Below the pieces are notes generated by a model that searched no databases, was not told the DNA's origin, and saw only the letters and a program-made list of their open reading frames with translations. A stretch of DNA of 64,000 nucleotides, taken from positions 2,271,804 through 2,335,803 of the forward strand of contig NZ_CP030032.1 in NCBI RefSeq assembly GCF_003258315.1, in the 5' to 3' direction. A program made the translations under genes and the position numbers. Source of the stretch: Bradymonas sediminis. Lineage in GTDB: Bacteria > Myxococcota_A > Bradymonadia > Bradymonadales > Bradymonadaceae. Shown in pieces: positions 45,852 to 59,134 of this stretch (position 1 is the first letter of the stretch; the number at the start of each line of letters is the position of its first letter).

Positions 45852-48185
45852 TTAAAGAACGAAGGGAGCGCGCATCTTCTGCGGCGAACCCACGAAGGTT
45901 GGGAAGCGCCAGCGCGCGCGGTGAGAGTCCATACACTTGGCGAATTCGGTATGGGCGAGGCGGTCGGGCGCGAGCAGCGACTCGGTGACGCGGCCGTTGG
46001 GCGCGACCGTAATCGTGAGATAAATTTTGCGCACATCCAGGTCCATACCACGACGCGAATGGCGCTGGCGGCAGACGCTCACGCTCTGACGAATGGTGTC
46101 GACGCCCTGATTGATCTCTTTACGGCTCAGGGCCTGTCCCATGCCAGCGTTCTCGGTCTCGCGCTCCTTCAGGGCGGCCGTCGGGCTATAGACCGAATCA
46201 CTGCGCTCGGTGCGAATCGCGTTCATCGAGTTAAACGCCGGGTTGCTCTTGGCGATCGGCGAGTCCAGGTCGGCGCTAAGCAAAACGCCCTTATCGTCAC
46301 CGGACTTTATCGTCTTCGTGCTCGAGCCCTTTTTGGAGGAGGCGGCGAGCGCCTCGTCGAGCGAGGGCGCGGAGTCAACGATATTTCCACCGCGAAACAC
46401 ACTGGCGACTTCTTTGGGCTTCTTCGCCGGAGCGTCTTCTGCCGGCGCGGCTTCTTTCTGGGCGACGACTTCACCCTCGTCCTCGGCGGCCGGCGTGTCA
46501 GCACCCTCGTCGACCGGAGCTTCAGCCACAGCCTTTTCGTCCGCCGCAGGCGCAACGGGCTCTTCTTTTTTCTCCGTCTCGGCGGCTGCCGGGGTCGCCT
46601 CTTTGAGGTCGGGTTTCTCCACGACTTTCGGCTCGATGGACTCGTTATTCTTATTCACAAAGATCATCGCCCCGCCAATAAGGAGGCCGGCGAAAAGAAG
46701 TCCGACAAGGATCAAAAGACCCTTTTTCTTCTTTTCATCCTTCTCGATCTCATCGATACGGTCGATGAGTTCGGCGCCTACAGACTCCGGAGCATCCGGC
46801 GTCGGGACGGGTTTGGGGGTAGGCGCGCCGAAGCCGACCAGAGGAGCGTCGTTTGACGGGGTGGATTCGGGTCCGCCGAGGTCGAGCGCCGTGGGCATCT
46901 CGAGTTCCGGCTGCCCAGCCTCATCGCCCTTCGCCCCGATGGACACAGGCACGGCGCCGAAGGCCGCGTCTTCAGACGGCTCACCGCCGGACGCACCATC
47001 AACGCTTGACTGAGCCGAGCCACCATCGGCGGCCAATCCACCAGCCAGGATATCGGGCTCATCCTGCGCAGACGGCTCCTCGTTCGAGGCTTCGTCGGCG
47101 GCTTCAGCCTTGTCGTCGGAGCTCGGCGCGTTGAGACGCGCGCGCAAATTAGCGAGGCGGTCGGTCTGGGCCTTCTCGGCGCGCTCAGCCTCTTCCTTCT
47201 CGCGCGCTTTACGCGCCTCTTCGGCTTTCTTAGCCTTCTCGGCCGCCTTGCGCTCGCGCTCTTCTTCGGCCTTGCGCGCTTCTTCGGCTTTTCGCGCTTT
47301 CTCGGCGGCTTTGCGCTCGCGTTTTTCTTCGGCCTTGCGCGCCTTCTCGGCCTTGCGCGCCTCCTCGGCGGCTTCGCGCTCGCGCTTTTCCTGAGCCTTG
47401 CGTTCTTCGTCGGCCTTGCGCGCCGCCTCTGCCTTCTCGGCTTCTTCGGCTGCCTTGCGCGCGTCTTCTTCGGCCTTGCGTGCCTTCTCGGCTTCGGCTG
47501 CTTTGCGTGCCTTCTCGGCTTCTTCGGCAGCCTTGCGCTCTTCTGCTGCCTTCTCTGCTTCGGCGGCCTTACGCGCTTCTTCGGCCTTGCGCGCAGCTTC
47601 GGCTTCGGCTGCTTTGCGCGCCGCTTCTGCCTTCTCAGCCTCGGCTGCCTTACGCGCTTCTTCGGCCTTCTCGGCCTCTGCAGCCAGACGCGCCTTCTCC
47701 GCCTCTTGATGCTTGGCGACGTCCTCTGGGGTGATCGCCGCGATTCCCTGCGAAATCCCGATGGTGCGATTGCGCGGCTTAAGCTTCTGCCCCTTATTTA
47801 GCGCGGTGAGGAATTCGTCGGCTTCGCGCACCGGCTTCCAGCCCGCGTAGGAATCAGTCCAGACATAGCACTCATCGCCGAGCTCGCCCGACGCAAAACG
47901 CGCGCAGAGATCAGCGAAGGGAAACGGGCCATAACTCTGCCCGTTCACCGAGTAATGCCACGCGGCGCTTGCCGGGTCGAAGGCAGGCGCCTGTACCGCC
48001 GGCGGCCGCTGCTGACTGCGCGACGGTTTCGCCTGAGCCGGCTGCGCCGCACGCACCGGTTCGGTCGGCTCACGTACAGTGATGACGTTGTCGCACTTCT
48101 TGCAACGCACCTTGAGGACCTTGCCGCGAACCTTCTCGTCGGCAATTCCGTATTTTGTATGACACTTGTCGCAGTAAAATTTCAT
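45852..48185 (-). CDS. GltJ/AgmX-like motility/adhesion complex protein (zinc ribbon, GYF, TM, AgmX/PglI C-terminus)
   Basis: 777 residues. (1) Zinc ribbon at 1-40: CDKC and CKKC. (2) GYF domain at about 76-135 (WHYSVNGQSYGPFPFADLCARF). (3) A Glu/Ala/Lys/Arg-rich region at about 155-350 built from KAEEARKAAEAEK repeats, expected to be a long helix or coiled coil. (4) An acidic/Ser linker with a membrane helix at about 487-510 (KGLLILVGLLFAGLLIGGAMIFV). (5) A periplasmic part ending in an AgmX/PglI-type C-terminal domain (about 655-777, SRKEINQGVDTIRQSVSVCRQRHS then TITVAPNGRVTESLLAPD). In Myxococcus, GltJ uses the same order to build focal adhesions. No other motility genes are near. Role here is inference from architecture. 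Confidence 0.85.
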   Translation of the reverse strand: MKFYCDKCHTKYGIADEKVRGKVLKVRCKKCDNVITVREPTEPVRAAQPAQAKPSRSQQRPPAVQAPAFDPASAAWHYSVNGQSYGPFPFADLCARFASGELGDECYVWTDSYAGWKPVREADEFLTALNKGQKLKPRNRTIGISQGIAAITPEDVAKHQEAEKARLAAEAEKAEEARKAAEAEKAEAARKAAEAEAARKAEEARKAAEAEKAAEERKAAEEAEKARKAAEAEKARKAEEDARKAAEEAEKAEAARKADEERKAQEKREREAAEEARKAEKARKAEEKRERKAAEKARKAEEARKAEEERERKAAEKAKKAEEARKAREKEEAERAEKAQTDRLANLRARLNAPSSDDKAEAADEASNEEPSAQDEPDILAGGLAADGGSAQSSVDGASGGEPSEDAAFGAVPVSIGAKGDEAGQPELEMPTALDLGGPESTPSNDAPLVGFGAPTPKPVPTPDAPESVGAELIDRIDEIEKDEKKKKGLLILVGLLFAGLLIGGAMIFVNKNNESIEPKVVEKPDLKEATPAAAETEKKEEPVAPAADEKAVAEAPVDEGADTPAAEDEGEVVAQKEAAPAEDAPAKKPKEVASVFRGGNIVDSAPSLDEALAASSKKGSSTKTIKSGDDKGVLLSADLDSPIAKSNPAFNSMNAIRTERSDSVYSPTAALKERETENAGMGQALSRKEINQGVDTIRQSVSVCRQRHSRRGMDLDVRKIYLTITVAPNGRVTESLLAPDRLAHTEFAKCMDSHRARWRFPTFVGSPQKMRAPFVL

Positions 48186-50928: not shown

Positions 50929-51278
50929 GAATTTTCGTCCACGCAGGCGCTCAGGTCGGCGCCGAAGCATTTACCCTGGTCGTGGGTGCCCGAGATGGTC
51001 TGACACGGAGAGCAGACCTGGTCGGCGGGGCATTGCGCCGCCGACTCACAGCGCGGGCGGCACTCATACTCGAAGCAGACCTCGCCGCCGGGACAGCTCA
51101 CCGTGGCGTTGCACTCGGCGGTGTCCACGCACGCCGGCGCGCCCAAAATCAGCAGCAAAAAAAGGAGCGCCCAGGCGCCCATAAAATAGGTGCGCCGCGC
51201 GGCCCGCGGCGCCGACGCCTCGACATCACCGGCGGGGCTGACTACATTGCGCCCCACCCGCTCTCGCGCCGAATCCAT
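50925..51278 (-). CDS. Cys-rich lipoprotein
   Basis: 117 residues from the ATG at 51278 (MDSARERVGRN), chosen because the longer reading frame would have a start codon overlapping that of the divergent SppA gene; other starts are possible (51182 or 51329). A membrane/signal segment (about 33-51, MGAWALLFLLLILGAPAC) ends in an APAC box. The mature part has about 12 cysteines in short spacings (SCPGGEVCFEYECRPRCESAAQCPADQVCSPCQ). Similar Cys-rich parts are seen at 54909 and 62610. Function unknown. Confidence 0.6.
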   Translation of the reverse strand: MDSARERVGRNVVSPAGDVEASAPRAARRTYFMGAWALLFLLLILGAPACVDTAECNATVSCPGGEVCFEYECRPRCESAAQCPADQVCSPCQTISGTHDQGKCFGADLSACVDENS

Positions 51279-51327
51279 CGCCCGCGCGGCGGGCTTCTTC
51301 GATGACTTATGCTCAGGAATATCGACC

Positions 51328-53139
51328 ATGCTACGCGCGCCTTTTGTGTTGCTGCGAAATCTCTTCATGCTCCTCGGCCACCTGTGGTCGAGCTTTTGGT
51401 TCAAGCTAGGTTATCTGTTTCGGCGCAAAAAGAAACTCTATATTCGCGTGGATTTAGAGAGCAGCTATCCCTTCGGCCCGCCGGAGGGGATCGCGCGATT
51501 CTTCCAGAGCGGCCCGTCTTTTATGGAGCTGCGCGAGAACCTGGCGCGCCTGCGCGACGCGAAAGAGGTCGACGGCATCGTGCTCATTCCGCAGGCAAGC
51601 GCGATGGGCCACGGGCAAAAGACCGAGCTCTACCGGCTGCTCGACGACCTTCGCGCCCACGGAAAAGACATCGTCGCGCACACCCAGATGCCCATGACCG
51701 CCGATTATATGACGCTCTTAAGCGCCGACTCCATCCTGATGAGCCCGGCGGGGCGCCTCTATTCTTTTGGCCCGCGCTTCGAGCAATATTTTGTGCACGA
51801 GGCGCTCCAGAAGCTGGGCATCGTCCCGCAATTTGTGCATATCGGCGAATTTAAGACCGCCTCGCACCGATTCTTGCACGAGTCGATGCCCCTGGCCCAA
51901 CGCCTGATGATGCAAAACCTCTACCGAAGCCTTAAAGATCTGCTGCTCGAGCGCATCGCCGAGCGCCGCGGCCTCACCCCGGCCCAGGCCGACCGCCTCT
52001 TTGAGCAGGCTCCGATGGACGCCCCCACGGCGCGCCGCGGCGGGTTTATCGACGGCGAGGTCTTCCGCGAGTCGGTCCGGGGCTGGCTGGAGGCGGGCGA
52101 GCTGGAGGCCGGCGAGTTGGAGGCGCCCGACGCAAAGGCGCCCAAAAACAGCTCAGATACGCTGATGCTCAACGCCGACGAATACCTCGCCTCAGCCCCG
52201 GAGCCCTACCGGTGGAAGCCGCTCTTTCGCCGGCCCAAGCGCTTCGCGGTGCTCGACCTCTCGGGCATGATCGTCATGCCGAATATGAATATCCCCGGGC
52301 AATCGGCGGTGACGATTGACCCGCACGAGGTCATCCCCGCGCTTCGGCGGGTTCGCGAGGACGCGCGCGTCGCCGGGGTGATCCTGCATATCAACTCCCC
52401 GGGCGGCAGCGCCCTGGCCAGCGATATCATCTGGCACGCCATCGAGGAGCTTCGCCGCACCAAACCGGTCATCGCCCAATGCTCGGATGTAGTGGGCAGC
52501 GGCGGGTATTATCTGGCGGTGGCCGCCGACGAGATTATCTGCGAGCGCTCCACGCTCACCGGCTCCATCGGCGTCATCACCGGCAAGATGTCGGCGCCGG
52601 GCGTGCCGGCCAAAATCGGCGTGAACTTCGAGGCCATCTTCGAGCACGACGCCGACAATTTCGCCAGCCTCACCGAGCCGCTCAGCCCCGAGATGATGGC
52701 GCGCATGGACGCCGACGCCCGCAGTTTTTATCGCCGCTTTTTGCAGCGGGTCGGCCAATCGCGCCAATTGTCGCGCCGCCGCCTGCACCGCTACGCCCGC
52801 GGCCGGGTCTACCTGGGCGAGGCCGCCCACAAGCGCGGCCTCGTCGACCATATCGGCGGCATGGACCTGGCCGTCGAGCGCCTGGCCAAGCTGTGCGTGA
52901 TGGACGCCAAGAAGACCGAATTGACCTATATCTCGCACCGCCAACAGGACCTGAAATCAGCGCTGCGCGGCTCGATTTTGCAGAGCCCGTCGATTCAGGC
53001 CGGCGCGCTCGGCGCGCTTGGCCAGGCCCTGGTGCCCCAGGCGAGCGACTGGCTCGACGCACTCGCCGAGCCGGCGATGCTCGCCAGCCTGCTCAAAAAA
53101 GACCCGATTCTCGCGCTGATGCCCTGGCGAGTGGGATGA
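51328..53139 (+). CDS. SppA-like signal peptide peptidase (S49)
   Basis: 603 residues from the ATG at 51328 (AGGAA at 9 nt). An N-terminal membrane helix lies at about 5-25. It is a two-domain SppA. The first half has GEFKTASHRFLHE with the catalytic Lys (K176). The second half has the nucleophile Ser (S391) in VVGSGGYYLAVAADEII, plus HINSPGGSALASD. A region of repeated ELEAGELEA and low-complexity sequence links them (about 255-275). It should cleave remnant signal peptides at the inner membrane. The start codon overlaps with a possible start of the divergent lipoprotein gene. Confidence 0.92.
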   Translation: MLRAPFVLLRNLFMLLGHLWSSFWFKLGYLFRRKKKLYIRVDLESSYPFGPPEGIARFFQSGPSFMELRENLARLRDAKEVDGIVLIPQASAMGHGQKTELYRLLDDLRAHGKDIVAHTQMPMTADYMTLLSADSILMSPAGRLYSFGPRFEQYFVHEALQKLGIVPQFVHIGEFKTASHRFLHESMPLAQRLMMQNLYRSLKDLLLERIAERRGLTPAQADRLFEQAPMDAPTARRGGFIDGEVFRESVRGWLEAGELEAGELEAPDAKAPKNSSDTLMLNADEYLASAPEPYRWKPLFRRPKRFAVLDLSGMIVMPNMNIPGQSAVTIDPHEVIPALRRVREDARVAGVILHINSPGGSALASDIIWHAIEELRRTKPVIAQCSDVVGSGGYYLAVAADEIICERSTLTGSIGVITGKMSAPGVPAKIGVNFEAIFEHDADNFASLTEPLSPEMMARMDADARSFYRRFLQRVGQSRQLSRRRLHRYARGRVYLGEAAHKRGLVDHIGGMDLAVERLAKLCVMDAKKTELTYISHRQQDLKSALRGSILQSPSIQAGALGALGQALVPQASDWLDALAEPAMLASLLKKDPILALMPWRVG

Positions 53140-53154: not shown

Positions 53155-53600
53155 GTGTCGCCTTCAGGCCTCCCACACCCCTCCTCTCCCCATACCATCC
53201 CCCCCTCGCGCCCGGCTCGGCCCTCGCCGGGGGGATCCGATGGGGGTAAAAAAGCGTCATCGCGATCGATTTTGCGATCTTATGCCCCCCTGACCCCTCC
53301 CCCCCCTCCCCACCCCCGGTCCGGATCCCCCCCTCGTCGCTCCGGTAGGCCCGCCGAGGGGGATGCGTCCCCGTCCTAAAACCGCCAGTAACCGTCAAAA
53401 CGCCAGAATATGCCAGCCTTAGGCCCCTATGGGGTCCAGGGGGGGGATGGGATCCCCCTCTCTCGGGGAGGCTTCCCGCCCAAAGGGGGATACGAATGGG
53501 GGGGCTGGAGGGGTCAGGGGCCTAAAGCCGGCAGAAAATCCCATTCTCGTCTCGACGCGAAGGGCTTCCCCCCGGTTGGAGAGCAGACTGACCGCCAGCT
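53155..53600. repeat. G-run/C-run region with long inverted repeats
   Basis: 445 bp with many runs of 4-8 G or C, C-runs to the left (53157-53350) and G-runs to the right (53430-53580). TTAGGCCCCT at 53419-53428 is perfectly inverted at 53516-53525. No credible ORF: frames are low-complexity and lack ribosome binding sites. G-quadruplex or hairpin formation is possible. It abuts the 99-bp array. Confidence 0.5.
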
Positions 53601-53619
53601 TCAGCATTAAACGCTCGCC

Positions 53620-54878
53620 ACCCGGAGCCAGGTCATCTTGACCTGGTAGCGAAACGCCTATTCCCCCAGACCTGGAAGGTCTGGCTCCGATGTTAATGCG
53701 ACCCATTGAACGCTCGCCACCCGGAGCCAGGTCATCTTGACCTGGTAGCGAAACGCCTCTTTCCCAGACCTGGAAGGTCTGGCTCCGATGTTAATGAGAC
53801 CCATCGAACGCTCGCTACTCGGAGCTAGGTCATCTTGACCTGGTAGCGAAACGCCTATTCCCCCAGACCTGGAAGGTCTGGCTCCGGTTTTAATGAGACC
53901 CATCGAACGCTTGCCACTCGGAGCCAGGTCATCTTGACCTGGTAGCGAAACGCCTATTCCCCCAGACCTGGAAGGTCTGGCTCCGGTTTTAATGCGACCC
54001 ATTGAACGCTCGCTACTCGGAGCCAGGTCATCTTGACCTGGTAGCTACACGCCTTTCCCCAGACCTGGACGGTCTGGCTCCGATTTTAATGAGACCCATT
54101 GAACGCTTGCCACTCGGAGCCAGGTCATCTTGACCTGGTTGCGAAACGGCTATGCCCCCAGACCTGGAAGGTCTGGCTCCGATGTTAATGAGACCCATCG
54201 AACGCTCGCCACCCGGAGCCAGGTCATCTTGACCTGGTAGCAATAGCCCTGTCTTCCCAGACCTGGAAGGTCTGGCTCCGATGTTAATGAGACCCATTTA
54301 ACGCTTGCTACTCGGAGCCAGGTCATCTTGACCTGCTAGCTATACGCCTTTCCCCAGACCTGGACGGTCTGGCTCCGATGTTAATGAGACCCATTGAACG
54401 CTTGCTACTCGGAGCCAGGTCATCTTGACCTGGTAGCGAAACGCCTATTCCCCCAGACCTGGAAGGTCTGGCTCCGGTTTTAATGAGACCCATCGAACGC
54501 TCGCCACCCGGAGCCAGGTCATCTTGACCTGGTAGCAATAGCCCTGTCTTTCCAGACCTGGACGGTCTGGCTCCGATGTTAATGAGACCCATCGAACGCT
54601 TGCTACTCGGAGCCAGGTCATCTTGACCTGGTAGCGAAACGCCTCTTTCCCAGACCTGGAAGGTCTGGCTCCGATGTTAATGAGACCCATCGAACGCTTG
54701 CTACTCGGAGCCAGGTCATCTTGACCTGGTAGCGAAACGCCTATTCCCCCAGACCTGGAAGGTCTGGCTCCGGTTTTAATGAGACCCAGCGAACGCTCGC
54801 CACCCGGAGCCAGGTCATCTTGACCTGGTAGCAATAGCCCTGTCTTTCCAGACCTGGAAGGTCTGGCTCCGATATTAA
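53620..54878. repeat. tandem array of 13 copies of a 97-99-bp double-palindrome repeat
   Basis: The unit starts (GGAGCC) are at 53624, 53723, 53821, 53920, 54019, 54116, 54215, 54314, 54411, 54510, 54609, 54707 and 54806. Each unit has two palindromes, CCAGGTCATCTTGACCTGG and CCAGACCTGGAAGGTCTGG. Outside them, GGAGCCAG at the start can pair with CTGGCTCC at the end of the second. Between the two palindromes the spacer falls into about five classes (for example GCGAAACGCCTATTCCCC, GCAATAGCCCTGTCTT). Linkers of about 30 bp join the units. Most units are 99 bp, so the minus strand stays open for long stretches, but 97- and 98-bp units shift the frame. Not coding, and not CRISPR because no unique spacers occur. 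Confidence 0.9.
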
Positions 54879-54908
54879 AGAGCGATCAAAATCGACTGAC
54901 CGCCCGCA

Positions 54909-55706
54909 TCAATCCGGCGTGGGCCAGCACCCCGGCCCCATGCATCGGCAATAGTCGGCCTCATTGCAGGTATATGCGCCCCCGCAATCCTCGTCCTGGC
55001 AGGGATAATAATACTCAACGCAAGTCGTATCGTTGAGACATGCCACCTGGCACGAATTCGTGCCGCAATCGATCCCGCCGCTACAAGCGGTATCAACCTC
55101 TCCAACCTGTCCGCATTCAATATGGCACTCAGAGGAACCACATTGAATGGCCCCCTCACACGCGTTAAGGCCCAGGCAGCGCAACGTGCATTGCGGCGAA
55201 TCGCCGCAGTCGATGGGCCCCTGGCATGCCCATTCCCCCTCACACAGAACGGTGCATTTCCCATCACCGCATTTGACGGGGCGTCTACAACTCGAATCTC
55301 TCTCACAATGAACGACACACGCCAGACCATCCGGACATTCAATCGAACCCAATGATACACTCTTAATATGACATTCACCGTTTCGACAACCACCATTGCA
55401 TATATCCGGACAGATATTTACGTCGGCATCCGCATCTGAAACGTCCGAAACGGCATCATTAATGATATCTTCTGCGCCGCCATCATCTTGATCAATATCC
55501 TCGTCGACATCGTTGACAGCATTCCCATCTTTTGGAGGGGAGGCGTCGACATCCCGGTCTGTACACGCTCCATCCACGCAAACTCGCGTTCCCCGACAGT
55601 CATCTTGCGACTTACACCCGACAGAATTGGTGTCTGAACTGCATGCTGATAAAGTGGCAATTTGATATAAGAAAAAGCAAAGAATAAGTAGACGATTCAT
55701 AATCAT
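54909..55706 (-). CDS. Cys-rich lipoprotein with an Asp-rich linker
   Basis: 265 residues. Lipobox LSAC (about residues 19-22), then a short Cys pair block (VGCKSQDDCRGTRVCVDGACTD), an acidic Asp/Val/Ser linker (about 52-98), and a C-terminal half with repeats of the form C-G-D-x-x-C-T-x-x-C-x-G-x-x-x-C-x-G (for example KCGDGKCTVLCEGEWACQGPIDCGDSPQCTLRCLG). These likely form disulfides on the cell surface. Function unknown; such proteins are common in myxobacteria. An insertion sequence lies 65 bp upstream and has displaced its upstream region. Confidence 0.75.
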   Translation of the reverse strand: MIMNRLLILCFFLYQIATLSACSSDTNSVGCKSQDDCRGTRVCVDGACTDRDVDASPPKDGNAVNDVDEDIDQDDGGAEDIINDAVSDVSDADADVNICPDICNGGCRNGECHIKSVSLGSIECPDGLACVVHCERDSSCRRPVKCGDGKCTVLCEGEWACQGPIDCGDSPQCTLRCLGLNACEGAIQCGSSECHIECGQVGEVDTACSGGIDCGTNSCQVACLNDTTCVEYYYPCQDEDCGGAYTCNEADYCRCMGPGCWPTPD

Positions 55707-55790: not shown

Positions 55791-57155
55791 TCACGCCGCC
55801 TGAGCTGCTGGCTCAACGCACCGCTTAAAGCTCGGCATCATCACCTGCATCGCGTCCTCCCATCTGGCGTCCGTCGCCAAGCTTCGCAGCGTCAAAATGG
55901 ACTGTCCTCCACGGGGCTTCCAGCGCTGCCCGTTTCGCTTCATTCCCGTCTGCACCAGTTGTTTACAGCAGGCCTCGACGTGTCCGCTGCCGATGGGATG
56001 GCCTTTGGCGCGCGCCTCGGCATAGTTCATTTGGGCCTTGTGATTCGCAATGTAGGTCAACGCCTGGTGGACCGGTTTTTGCCCGCCGACCTCGAGGTTC
56101 ACAGCTCGCCAGCGTTTGATCGTTCGCTCTATATTCTCAATGGCATTCGGTGTGTTGAGCAATTCGGTTTTCCATTTGGCCAATAGTTCCTTCGCCTTTT
56201 TCGACGTGGAGCGCTTATTGCAAAACGCAGTGAGGGCGGCCGAGAGCTTTTCGACAACGTGATAATAGTCGATATAGCGCGCCGCTTCGGGATAATCGGC
56301 ATCGAGGATGTTGCATAATTCGGCCGCCCCATCGCTTAAGGTGACGACCTCTAAATCCTCTCGGCGCCCGCCAATCGCCGCCACATCCCACTTCATCTGC
56401 TCGCGTAAAATATGGGCACCTTCGCCCGGCATACGCCCGTATCGAAGCGTTTTAAGTGGCTCGCCTGTGCCGTCGTAAAGAGTCAGCGTGCCGCAATACG
56501 CCATGCGCCAGTTCAGCTTCTGCTCTTCATCGATCAGCAGGCTCACTCGGTCGATGGACACCGCGAGTCGGGCGGCCGCATCGGGTATTTTAAAAGCTTG
56601 AATCGTGGCCTCTTCGTGCTGATCCCGGTCCGCTTCCCAGCGCGCCCCAAGGGTGCGCGCGACGCGCTTAAAGCTATTAAAGGAGTACGCCATTGCTCCC
56701 AATTTTTGGGCGACTTTTGAGGCCGCGCGCTCGGGAAGTTCCTGGGCGATATAGGCCATCGCCTCGGCGCAGCCGGGTGTCCACTCCCCGTGCACCATCC
56801 CGACCCTCGCCTCCAGTGGGCAGACAATCGCGCCGTTGTGCTCGCCGCTGGGACGATAGACATGGCGCGCCAGCCGAACCTCGCCGCGCTGTGTGTGGTA
56901 GGTTTTTTCGACGGGTTTGCTCATCCGATAATGACACGCCCCATCGACATTAATAAGTGATGCGTCGAGGTCATAGCCGAGTAACCATCGGCCGATTGCC
57001 TCAGCTCCGAGCCGGTCGCCCGCGCGGGCAATCTTTAGCTCGGTAATCCTTGGTTCCTCGCTGCTTCGAGCCTGGATGACCGTCTCGATCAGGTCTTCGA
57101 AAAACGGCTGAAGTTGCTTGCGAATCTCGTCTCGTTCATGCGATTGTTGGACCAT
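55791..57155 (-). CDS. ISKra4-like transposase
   Basis: 454 residues from the ATG at 57155, which has AAGGAGG at 6 nt; an in-frame start at 57227 is less likely. Blocks seen: GVHxxRMSKPVEKTYHTQRGEVRLARHVYR-like N-terminal region, AVSIDRVSLLIDEEQK, TLSDGAAELCNILDADYPEAARYIDYYHVVEKL, and GSGHVEACCKQLVQTGMKRNGQRWKPRGGQSILTLRSL. The order of D...D...H...E fits DDE-type transposases of the ISKra4 group. The stop codon lies inside the left terminal repeat. No frameshift or internal stop, so it may be active. Confidence 0.9.
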   Translation of the reverse strand: MVQQSHERDEIRKQLQPFFEDLIETVIQARSSEEPRITELKIARAGDRLGAEAIGRWLLGYDLDASLINVDGACHYRMSKPVEKTYHTQRGEVRLARHVYRPSGEHNGAIVCPLEARVGMVHGEWTPGCAEAMAYIAQELPERAASKVAQKLGAMAYSFNSFKRVARTLGARWEADRDQHEEATIQAFKIPDAAARLAVSIDRVSLLIDEEQKLNWRMAYCGTLTLYDGTGEPLKTLRYGRMPGEGAHILREQMKWDVAAIGGRREDLEVVTLSDGAAELCNILDADYPEAARYIDYYHVVEKLSAALTAFCNKRSTSKKAKELLAKWKTELLNTPNAIENIERTIKRWRAVNLEVGGQKPVHQALTYIANHKAQMNYAEARAKGHPIGSGHVEACCKQLVQTGMKRNGQRWKPRGGQSILTLRSLATDARWEDAMQVMMPSFKRCVEPAAQAA

Positions 57156-57207
57156 GGGGCGCCTCCTTGGCAGTAACTGAGTTCTTGGTCGAAAACAGTT
57201 TTGCCAT
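57136..57207 (-). CDS. 23-codon leader ORF of the insertion sequence
   Basis: ATG at 57207 preceded by AAAGGAG at 9 nt; the product starts MAKLFSTKNSV. It ends at 57136, overlapping the transposase start in another frame. The strong ribosome binding site of the transposase lies inside it. This looks like translational coupling or a control peptide. Small and unproven. Confidence 0.45.
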   Translation of the reverse strand: MAKLFSTKNSVTAKEAPHGPTIA

Positions 57208-57394
57208 AGACGGCGCTCCTTTTTCAATTCAACCGGCGGCGACTACGCGTTCAGGCCTTGATAAATACGAGATCCACACCCATGCCACCCAACACGCCGA
57301 GAAACTTTCGCGGCACGCAAGCCCCCTTCTGTCGCTTTTGGCGAGGCGCTTTGGGTGCGCTGTGTTTGGAGCACTCCGGGGGGCGCCGCGCAGA

Positions 57395-57419
57395 CACCAG
57401 CCGGCTTGCCCGGCTGGTG
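57395..57419. terminator. 10-bp perfect hairpin after the 80-aa gene
   Basis: CACCAGCCGG / CCGGCTGGTG around a 5-nt loop, just beyond the stop of the 57422-57664 gene (minus strand). No T-run follows, so it could be a non-canonical terminator. Confidence 0.5.
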
Positions 57420-57421
57420 AA

Positions 57422-57664
57422 TCAGACTGACCGCCTAATTCGTTCGACGGCGAACCAATAGACGCCCCGAGCATCTCTCCTCGCCTCACACCTGACCTGC
57501 TCGCCCGGCTGAAACATCCAACACTCATCGCCGGGCACGACAGTATCCTTGGGTATCTCGAAGCGATCTTGTCCTAATGAAATCGCATGGACAGGTCGCG
57601 CGACAGCGACGCCTTCGCCGATTAGAGGCATATAAATCAGAAGGTTAATTGCCACACCTACCAT
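57422..57664 (-). CDS. small protein, unknown function
   Basis: 80 residues; ATG at 57664 overlaps the end of the 226-aa gene in another frame. A later ATG (57631, MPLIGEGVAVARPVHAIS) is also possible. The sequence alternates short strands (VAVARPVHAISLGQDRFEIPKDTVVPGDECWMFQPGEQVRCEARRDARGVYWFAVERI), suggesting a small beta barrel. Not recognised. Likely in the same operon as the gene upstream. Confidence 0.5.
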   Translation of the reverse strand: MVGVAINLLIYMPLIGEGVAVARPVHAISLGQDRFEIPKDTVVPGDECWMFQPGEQVRCEARRDARGVYWFAVERIRRSV

Positions 57665-58805: not shown

Positions 58806-58877
58806 TGCAAACAATTCACCGTTATTGTGCCCTAAGCATTACCTGTAGTGTAGGCGTTCAGCGGGCATCAGATATTG

Positions 58878-58945
58878 GGGCCAGGTCATCTTGACCTGGT
58901 TGCGAAACGCCTATTCCCCCAGACCTGGAAGGTCTGGCTCCGATG
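58878..58945. repeat. solitary copy of the 99-bp array unit
   Basis: GGGGCCAGGTCATCTTGACCTGG, a GCGAAACGCCTATTCCCC spacer and CCAGACCTGGAAGGTCTGGCTCC, then the GATGTTAATG linker. It matches array units in class and orientation. It lies about 4 kb from the array in the 329-bp gap (58806-59134) before the UvrD-like gene. The rest of the gap shows no gene. Confidence 0.9.
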
Positions 58946-59134
58946 TTAATGCTACCCATTGAGCCCAAATAATCAATGCCTTAGCCCACCGAGGACGTGG
59001 CCGGCGCTCAGCAGCCCTGCAAATCTCGATTTGCAATTGCGACCGCCTCGAAGAACCATTAATCCTCTTGATATCGCCCCCGCCACCACGTAGCGGACGC
59101 ACCACTCGTATCTGCAAGACCGACGGAACCCACC

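Follow-up and report, generated by a model that had tools for sequence, protein, structure and literature searches.

We propose that an array of thirteen repeat units in Bradymonas sediminis arose by amplifying a mobile REP dimer (BIME/REPIN) in tandem, and that it belongs to the REPtron whose RAYT gene lies at G000:C1:2524653-2525255. We consider this reading highly likely. The array lies in a window of 64,000 nucleotides, the whole stretch of DNA analysed here (contig NZ_CP030032.1, positions 2,271,804 to 2,335,803; coordinates without a prefix refer to the window), and is probably served by a single-strand-DNA transposase gene located elsewhere in the genome. Its hairpins carry the tag GGAG, which falls outside the published REP tetranucleotide, GT[A/G]G (PMC3686654, PMC6006769). 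Consequently, we file the element as a REP variant and not as a plain member.

Tandem Repeats Finder and an alignment of the units bear out the thirteen copies of 97-99 bp that an earlier note on this DNA had described. The program delimits the array at 53610-54882, with a period of 99, 12.9 copies and 89% matches, yet a 295-bp period, equal to three units, fits better (93% matches). The units start at 53624, 53723, 53821, 53920, 54019, 54116, 54215, 54314, 54411, 54510, 54609, 54707 and 54806, and the thirteenth is truncated. Each is built of two convergent (head-to-head) hairpins, with GGAG positioned 5′ of each hairpin on its own strand. The array and the parts of its first unit are as follows.

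53624..54882, plus strand: tandem BIME array of 13 units (outer limits by Tandem Repeats Finder, 53610-54882)
53624..53646, plus strand: REP1 of unit 1, GGAG-CCAGGTC-ATCTT-GACCTGG; a REP1 opens every unit
53647..53665, no strand: inner spacer of unit 1; 17-19 nt over all units, in four classes
53666..53688, minus strand: REP2 of unit 1, GGAG-CCAGACC-TTCCA-GGTCTGG; a REP2 is present in every unit
53689..53722, no strand: outer spacer of unit 1, 34 nt, GATGTTAATG...GAACGCTCGCCACCC

REP elements are defined by a short palindrome that a conserved tetranucleotide directly precedes on one strand; here, GGAG abuts the hairpin. The two perfect 8-bp stems that had been ascribed to every unit are found in nine of the thirteen. 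The remainder carry substitutions: one in the first hairpin of units 3 and 8, and, in units 5, 8 and 10, a second hairpin with TGGAC, not TGGAA. An outer pairing, GGAGCC...GGCTCC, would enclose both hairpins in a three-way junction. For unit 1, folding of either strand predicts this nested structure, also noted earlier, as the state of lowest energy (DNA z about -5). For units 7 and 10, folded without the 4 upstream bases, two hairpins alone remain in the prediction.

The array is bordered by two genes that read towards it and lie outside the element.

51190..53139, plus strand: S49 peptidase (SppA-like) gene, left neighbour
54909..55706, minus strand: gene for a cysteine-rich putative secreted protein, right neighbour

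Several other features of the surroundings were recorded. A C-rich and then G-rich block with long inverted repeats adjoins the array on its left (53160-53560). Copies of GACTGACCGC lie to the left and to the right of the array (53586-53595 and 54894-54903), with another further right (57425-57434), always on the plus strand; about 0.2 occurrences would be expected by chance. Further away, a low-complexity coding repeat rich in Ala, Glu and Lys (47212-47698) lies within a 777-aa ORF at 45852-48185. No tRNA was found in the window.

The spacers record how the array may have grown. The inner spacers of units 1, 3, 4, 9 and 12 share one class, of which unit 6 carries a variant; the other classes comprise units 2 and 11, units 5 and 8, and units 7, 10 and 13. 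These make four classes and one variant, where the earlier note had counted about five reused classes. Reuse of spacers in classes sets the array apart from CRISPR, as had been recognised, and no Cas-like domain was found in the neighbouring genes scanned. The pair of units suspected of being recent duplicates are units 9 and 12, which differ at one position, as do units 2 and 11.

54411..54509, plus strand: unit 9, a single difference from unit 12
54707..54805, plus strand: unit 12, a single difference from unit 9

Units three apart resemble each other more than expected by chance (permutation p = 0.00065), in agreement with the better fit of the 295-bp period. Within the array, the mean pairwise difference is 1.3% and 1.7% for the two REPs, compared with 25% for inner spacers of equal length and 11% for outer spacers. 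Near-invariant hairpins alongside divergent spacers argue against a decaying duplication. The hairpins have been held constant by homogenisation or selection, either of which would fit.

REPs were censused across the genome by pattern, BLAST and covariance searches. The GGAG-plus-hairpin pattern has 103 exact matches in the B. sediminis genome and a reversed control pattern has 0, whereas 20 other genomes of the family have 0-1 matches each. Within the family, the exact pattern is thus essentially confined to B. sediminis. A covariance model of the dimer also found matches across the genome (102 rows at E up to 0.1, many being the same place counted on both strands). Overall, the genome holds about 100 REPs, both as single copies and in at least five further arrays; the first four listed are 96-100% homogeneous.

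124 bp x 12.7 copies, 99%
85 bp x 6.6 copies
44 bp x 7.6 copies, 100%
108 bp x 8.3 copies
Four to five units near 948.6-949.0 kb

Two other repeats were noted. A 178-bp x 10.7 array near 3.035 Mb (G000:C1:3034800-3036675; L170 801-2675) reads, on its minus strand, GGAG, then C, then AAGAGC-ATCCT-GCTCTTG, with the tag and loop style of the window array and a different stem. At G000:C1:4091269-4091890 (L047), the tagged strand of the hairpin CCAGCGC-TTCAA-GC[A/T]CTGG contains a mismatch, in most copies C-A, to which a G-T wobble corresponds on the opposite strand.

Dimers like those of the array occur at about ten other places, each with different neighbours. The copies are nearly all intergenic by a simple ORF test, as is expected of REP elements, which have many dispersed and mostly intergenic copies. 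Dispersed single dimers resemble each other beyond their hairpins, where left-hand CGTTCAG and right-hand CTGAACG form an outer inverted repeat. Further, the outer-spacer motifs GATGTTAA and GAACGCT recur downstream of dispersed copies, indicating that part of the outer spacer belongs to the element. One such dimer lies in an intergenic gap to the right of the array.

58877..58962, plus strand: dispersed single dimer, 3 differences from unit 1 over 86 nt; the match starts at the tag, here GGGG

Dispersed dimers align over REP1, spacer and REP2 and have common flanking motifs. An inverted REP pair with a short spacer, behaving as one unit, is what defines a BIME or REPIN, and we infer that the BIME moves as such.

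A candidate enzyme for this movement is encoded about 198 kb from the window array.

G000:C1:2524653-2525255, minus strand: RAYT gene, 201 aa

The protein matches the NCBIfam profile REP_Tyr_transpos with E 9.5e-19 and 67.7 bits, short of the curated cut-off of 80; its relatives score 61-97 bits on the same profile. It exceeds the cut-off for Pfam Y1_Tnp. Like other RAYTs, which are Y1 HuH transposases with two catalytic histidines and one tyrosine, it has H122 and H124 (HuH) and Y182, all invariant in 18 relatives. A profile of its relatives has a single match among solved structures, 4ER8, the TnpA_REP of E. coli; phmmer with the single RAYT sequence found no match in the PDB.

The RAYT gene lies between two of the further tandem arrays, with 8 REPs on one side and 8-9 on the other. 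These read GGAG-CCAGACC-ATCTT-GGTCTGG, together with an inverted partner. Judged from sequence, the gene and its flanking arrays are a REPtron, defined as a RAYT gene with cognate REPs on either side. Compared with the RAYT-flanking REP, REP1 of the window keeps the loop and has a compensated change of the stem, from CCAGACC/GGTCTGG to CCAGGTC/GACCTGG (AC/GT to GT/AC). The exact REP1 variant, with its CCAGGTC stem, is absent beside the RAYT gene, where the stem is CCAGACC, and at least one further RAYT of the genome lies near GGAG-tagged REPs, so the cognate assignment rests on likeness of stem and loop. The same arrangement recurs in a second genus. There, genome G010 encodes a RAYT ortholog 54% identical to that of B. 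sediminis, with GGAG-tagged arrays on both sides and the hairpins GCAGCGC-TTCGA-GCGCTGG and GGAG-GCAGACC-ATCTT-GGTCTGG.

Other Y1 transposase genes were considered. To either side of the second RAYT-like gene (L042 / L077, G000:C1:1511583-1511948) lie GGAG-tagged REPs with a different stem, GGAG-C-GCGGGCC-TCCC-GGCCCGC, in both orientations. PF01797 genes at 3846158, 1279828 and 710935 are weaker matches that have different REPs or no clear ones, and were left unassigned to the window array. The four strongest PF01797 matches were set aside, having the size and score of ordinary IS200 transposases. Within the window, a hairpin at 57375-57440, CCAGCCGG-CTTGC-CCGGCTGG followed by TGAATCAGACTGACCGCC, resembles hairpins around the Y1_Tnp gene at G000:C1:710935 (L041), and suggests a second REP class.

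REPs are known to serve their hosts as terminators and mRNA-stabilising structures. The array might therefore be a functional terminator, or an mRNA-stabilising or attenuating RNA structure, kept between convergent genes for that role and mobile only in the past. Indeed, the window array and the arrays near 861 kb and 4091 kb all lie between convergent genes, the folded unit is predicted to be very stable as RNA, and the hairpins are conserved far more than the spacers. However, a scan of the array found neither a U-tract terminator nor a promoter-like site, copies are also found where the neighbouring genes diverge or share a strand, one or two hairpins would be enough for such a function, and the copies flanking the RAYT gene would be left unexplained. 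We regard this explanation as unlikely. The suggestion of a dedicated multi-hairpin RNA found no support, with no promoter-like site in the array and no relevant match to Rfam families. The position of the array between convergent genes would still permit its hairpins, as RNA, to act secondarily as a block where transcripts end.

A frozen tandem duplication with no transposase link would account for the duplicated three-unit blocks, such as ordinary recombination makes, but is very improbable. The earlier note had tied this outcome to a unit found only here, in degraded copies; instead, the genome-wide census, which disfavours it, found the same dimers dispersed among different neighbours and other arrays of near-complete homogeneity, and the RAYT gene is itself flanked by near-identical REPs. 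The remaining readings fare worse still. Tandem paired inverted repeats folding from one strand recall the substrate of a site-specific recombinase, as had also been suggested, or a folded integron/attC-like site; cassette genes are absent between units, no recombinase gene adjoins the array among the ORFs examined, and the strand-specific GGAG tag and loop fit RAYT substrates instead, making this highly implausible. Least credible of all is that the array arose passively from the transposase gene 0.9 kb to its right, a reading favoured by position alone: repeats of these families are found at many further sites, the transposase that they flank is of the Y1 type, and no REP hairpins were seen as termini of the DDE element.

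55791-57227, minus strand: full-length gene for a DDE transposase, ISL3-like according to a Pfam match below threshold

How a RAYT might disperse REP dimers can be outlined by analogy with the REP/RAYT systems of E. coli, Stenotrophomonas and Marinomonas, from which the presumed enzymology is drawn (PMC8266576). When the region becomes single-stranded, for example as lagging-strand template, the tagged strand of each REP would form an 8-bp hairpin closed by a TCY loop. A RAYT dimer would recognise the loop and the GGAG guide at the foot of the hairpin, and would cut at a short dinucleotide nearby using its HuH/Tyr site. The published guide rule predicts a cut at CT through A3/G4, or at CC through G2/G4. 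Rejoining of the single strand by the RAYT would then disperse dimers into intergenic gaps. After a dimer has settled there, one to three units at a time may be multiplied through unequal recombination or slippage during replication.

The hairpins near RAYT relatives in several phyla were compared. The loop type of the window units, TCY or TCCY, is found at 42 of the 46 loci having any qualifying hairpin near the gene. By hairpin, its share is 73% at less than 500 bp from the RAYT gene and 33% at more than 1200 bp; the distant set still contains REPs, and the control is therefore conservative. Of 119 distinct hairpins, 98 show a tag-like motif on the strand with the TCY loop, and 9 show one on the other flank. 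Tags at these loci are mostly GTAG, GTAC or GTGG, with GG tags (GGAG, GGAC) in Bradymonadales and scattered others.

The type of tag corresponds with one residue of the transposase. At the position aligned to His101 of E. coli TnpA_REP, a mapping confirmed by alignment to 4ER8, RAYTs have Arg with GG tags and His with GT tags. The paper that lists His101 as a contact of the GTAG guide also notes that Arg takes its place in some cases (PMC6006769). Tags were called first by eye and then by a fixed rule on all loci, including Myxococcota loci added after the idea arose. Residue and tag are concordant at 48 of 51 scorable loci (Arg/GG 16, Arg/GT 3, His/GT 32, His/GG 0; Fisher p = 1.4e-10, with relatedness ignored). 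The later-added loci, too few for significance, give Arg/GG 4, Arg/GT 1, His/GT 3 and His/GG 0 (Fisher p = 0.14).

A tree built without this residue requires 4 changes to account for Arg and 5 to account for GG. The combination of Arg and GG arises in three places: one large clade, the pair of B. sediminis and G010, and one Bacteroidales entry, the latter two each nested in a His/GT clade. L136 is the one clear exception, having Arg with GT; the Arg/GT calls at L066 and L073 read GGTG and are ambiguous under the fixed rule. Relatedness would thus account for part of the association, leaving about three apparent co-changes and the one exception. We speculate that this residue sets RAYT guide specificity in part, with His reading GT and Arg reading GG, and that residue and tag have changed in concert on three or more occasions, one of them in the lineage from which the window array comes. 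This is a tentative proposal, which we hold to be slightly less likely than not. It offers a single-residue hypothesis for hairpin choice by domesticated single-strand transposases, an open question in the REP literature (PMC8266576). Among the open-access main texts searched, the correlation is provisionally new.

Of the three readings that the earlier note offered, a REP/BIME-like array is the one borne out, by the genome-wide dispersal of the tagged hairpins and by the RAYT gene between them. The earlier statement that no described family has this form does not hold as to kind, since REP dimers reiterated in tandem with flanking DNA have already been described (PMC3733652). It is defensible for the GGAG tag alone: in the open-access main texts of the REP/RAYT literature searched, GGAG is unmentioned as a tag and no paper was found to contain the words RAYT and GGAG together, making the tag provisionally novel. 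In other respects, the B. sediminis elements closely resemble GTAG-tagged REP dimers, BIMEs and REPINs (PMC3733652, PMC3686654, PMC3116915). Both are short tagged palindromes in head-to-head dimers, with spacer classes, intergenic dispersal, tandem reiteration with flanking DNA, and a RAYT flanked by cognate REPs. They differ in tag (GTAG/GTGG there, GGAG here), in the TCY loops with A-T or T-A closing of B. sediminis, and in that much of its copy number lies in long tandem arrays. REPs tagged CGTC (PMC3733652) show that tags besides GTAG exist, but theirs is another tag and not the class seen here.

Among described transposases, TnpA_REP subclass 2.4 / RAYT group 4 (PMC6006769) shares the motifs NH[V/I]H, WQ and YIxNP with most of the relatives, and a distribution over Bacteroidota and various phyla. 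Its "double foot" REPs have a counterpart in the GGAG-hairpin-CTCC of the B. sediminis 948 kb array. The B. sediminis RAYT itself has THIH and YVWANP, and its subclass is assigned by motif only. GG tags fall outside the GT[AG]G search rule of that survey. The E. coli REPtron (4ER8) aligns at residue level, including the catalytic region and the tag-contacting segment W94-Q95-...-R104. It differs from that of B. sediminis in having His101 where the latter has Arg, GTAG where the latter has GGAG, and a bulged stem where the latter has a perfect stem and TCY loop.

On this reading, an unexplained repeat becomes part of a REP/RAYT system, of which we found no earlier report in this predatory lineage of Myxococcota, and the definition of REPs is widened to GG tags. 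Published searches that require GT[A/G]G cannot detect the B. sediminis elements. If the proposed role of the His101 position is true, surveys that sought GT[A/G]G alone have overlooked a class of GG-tagged REPs, and REP families would have an evolvable, rewritable protein-to-guide code.
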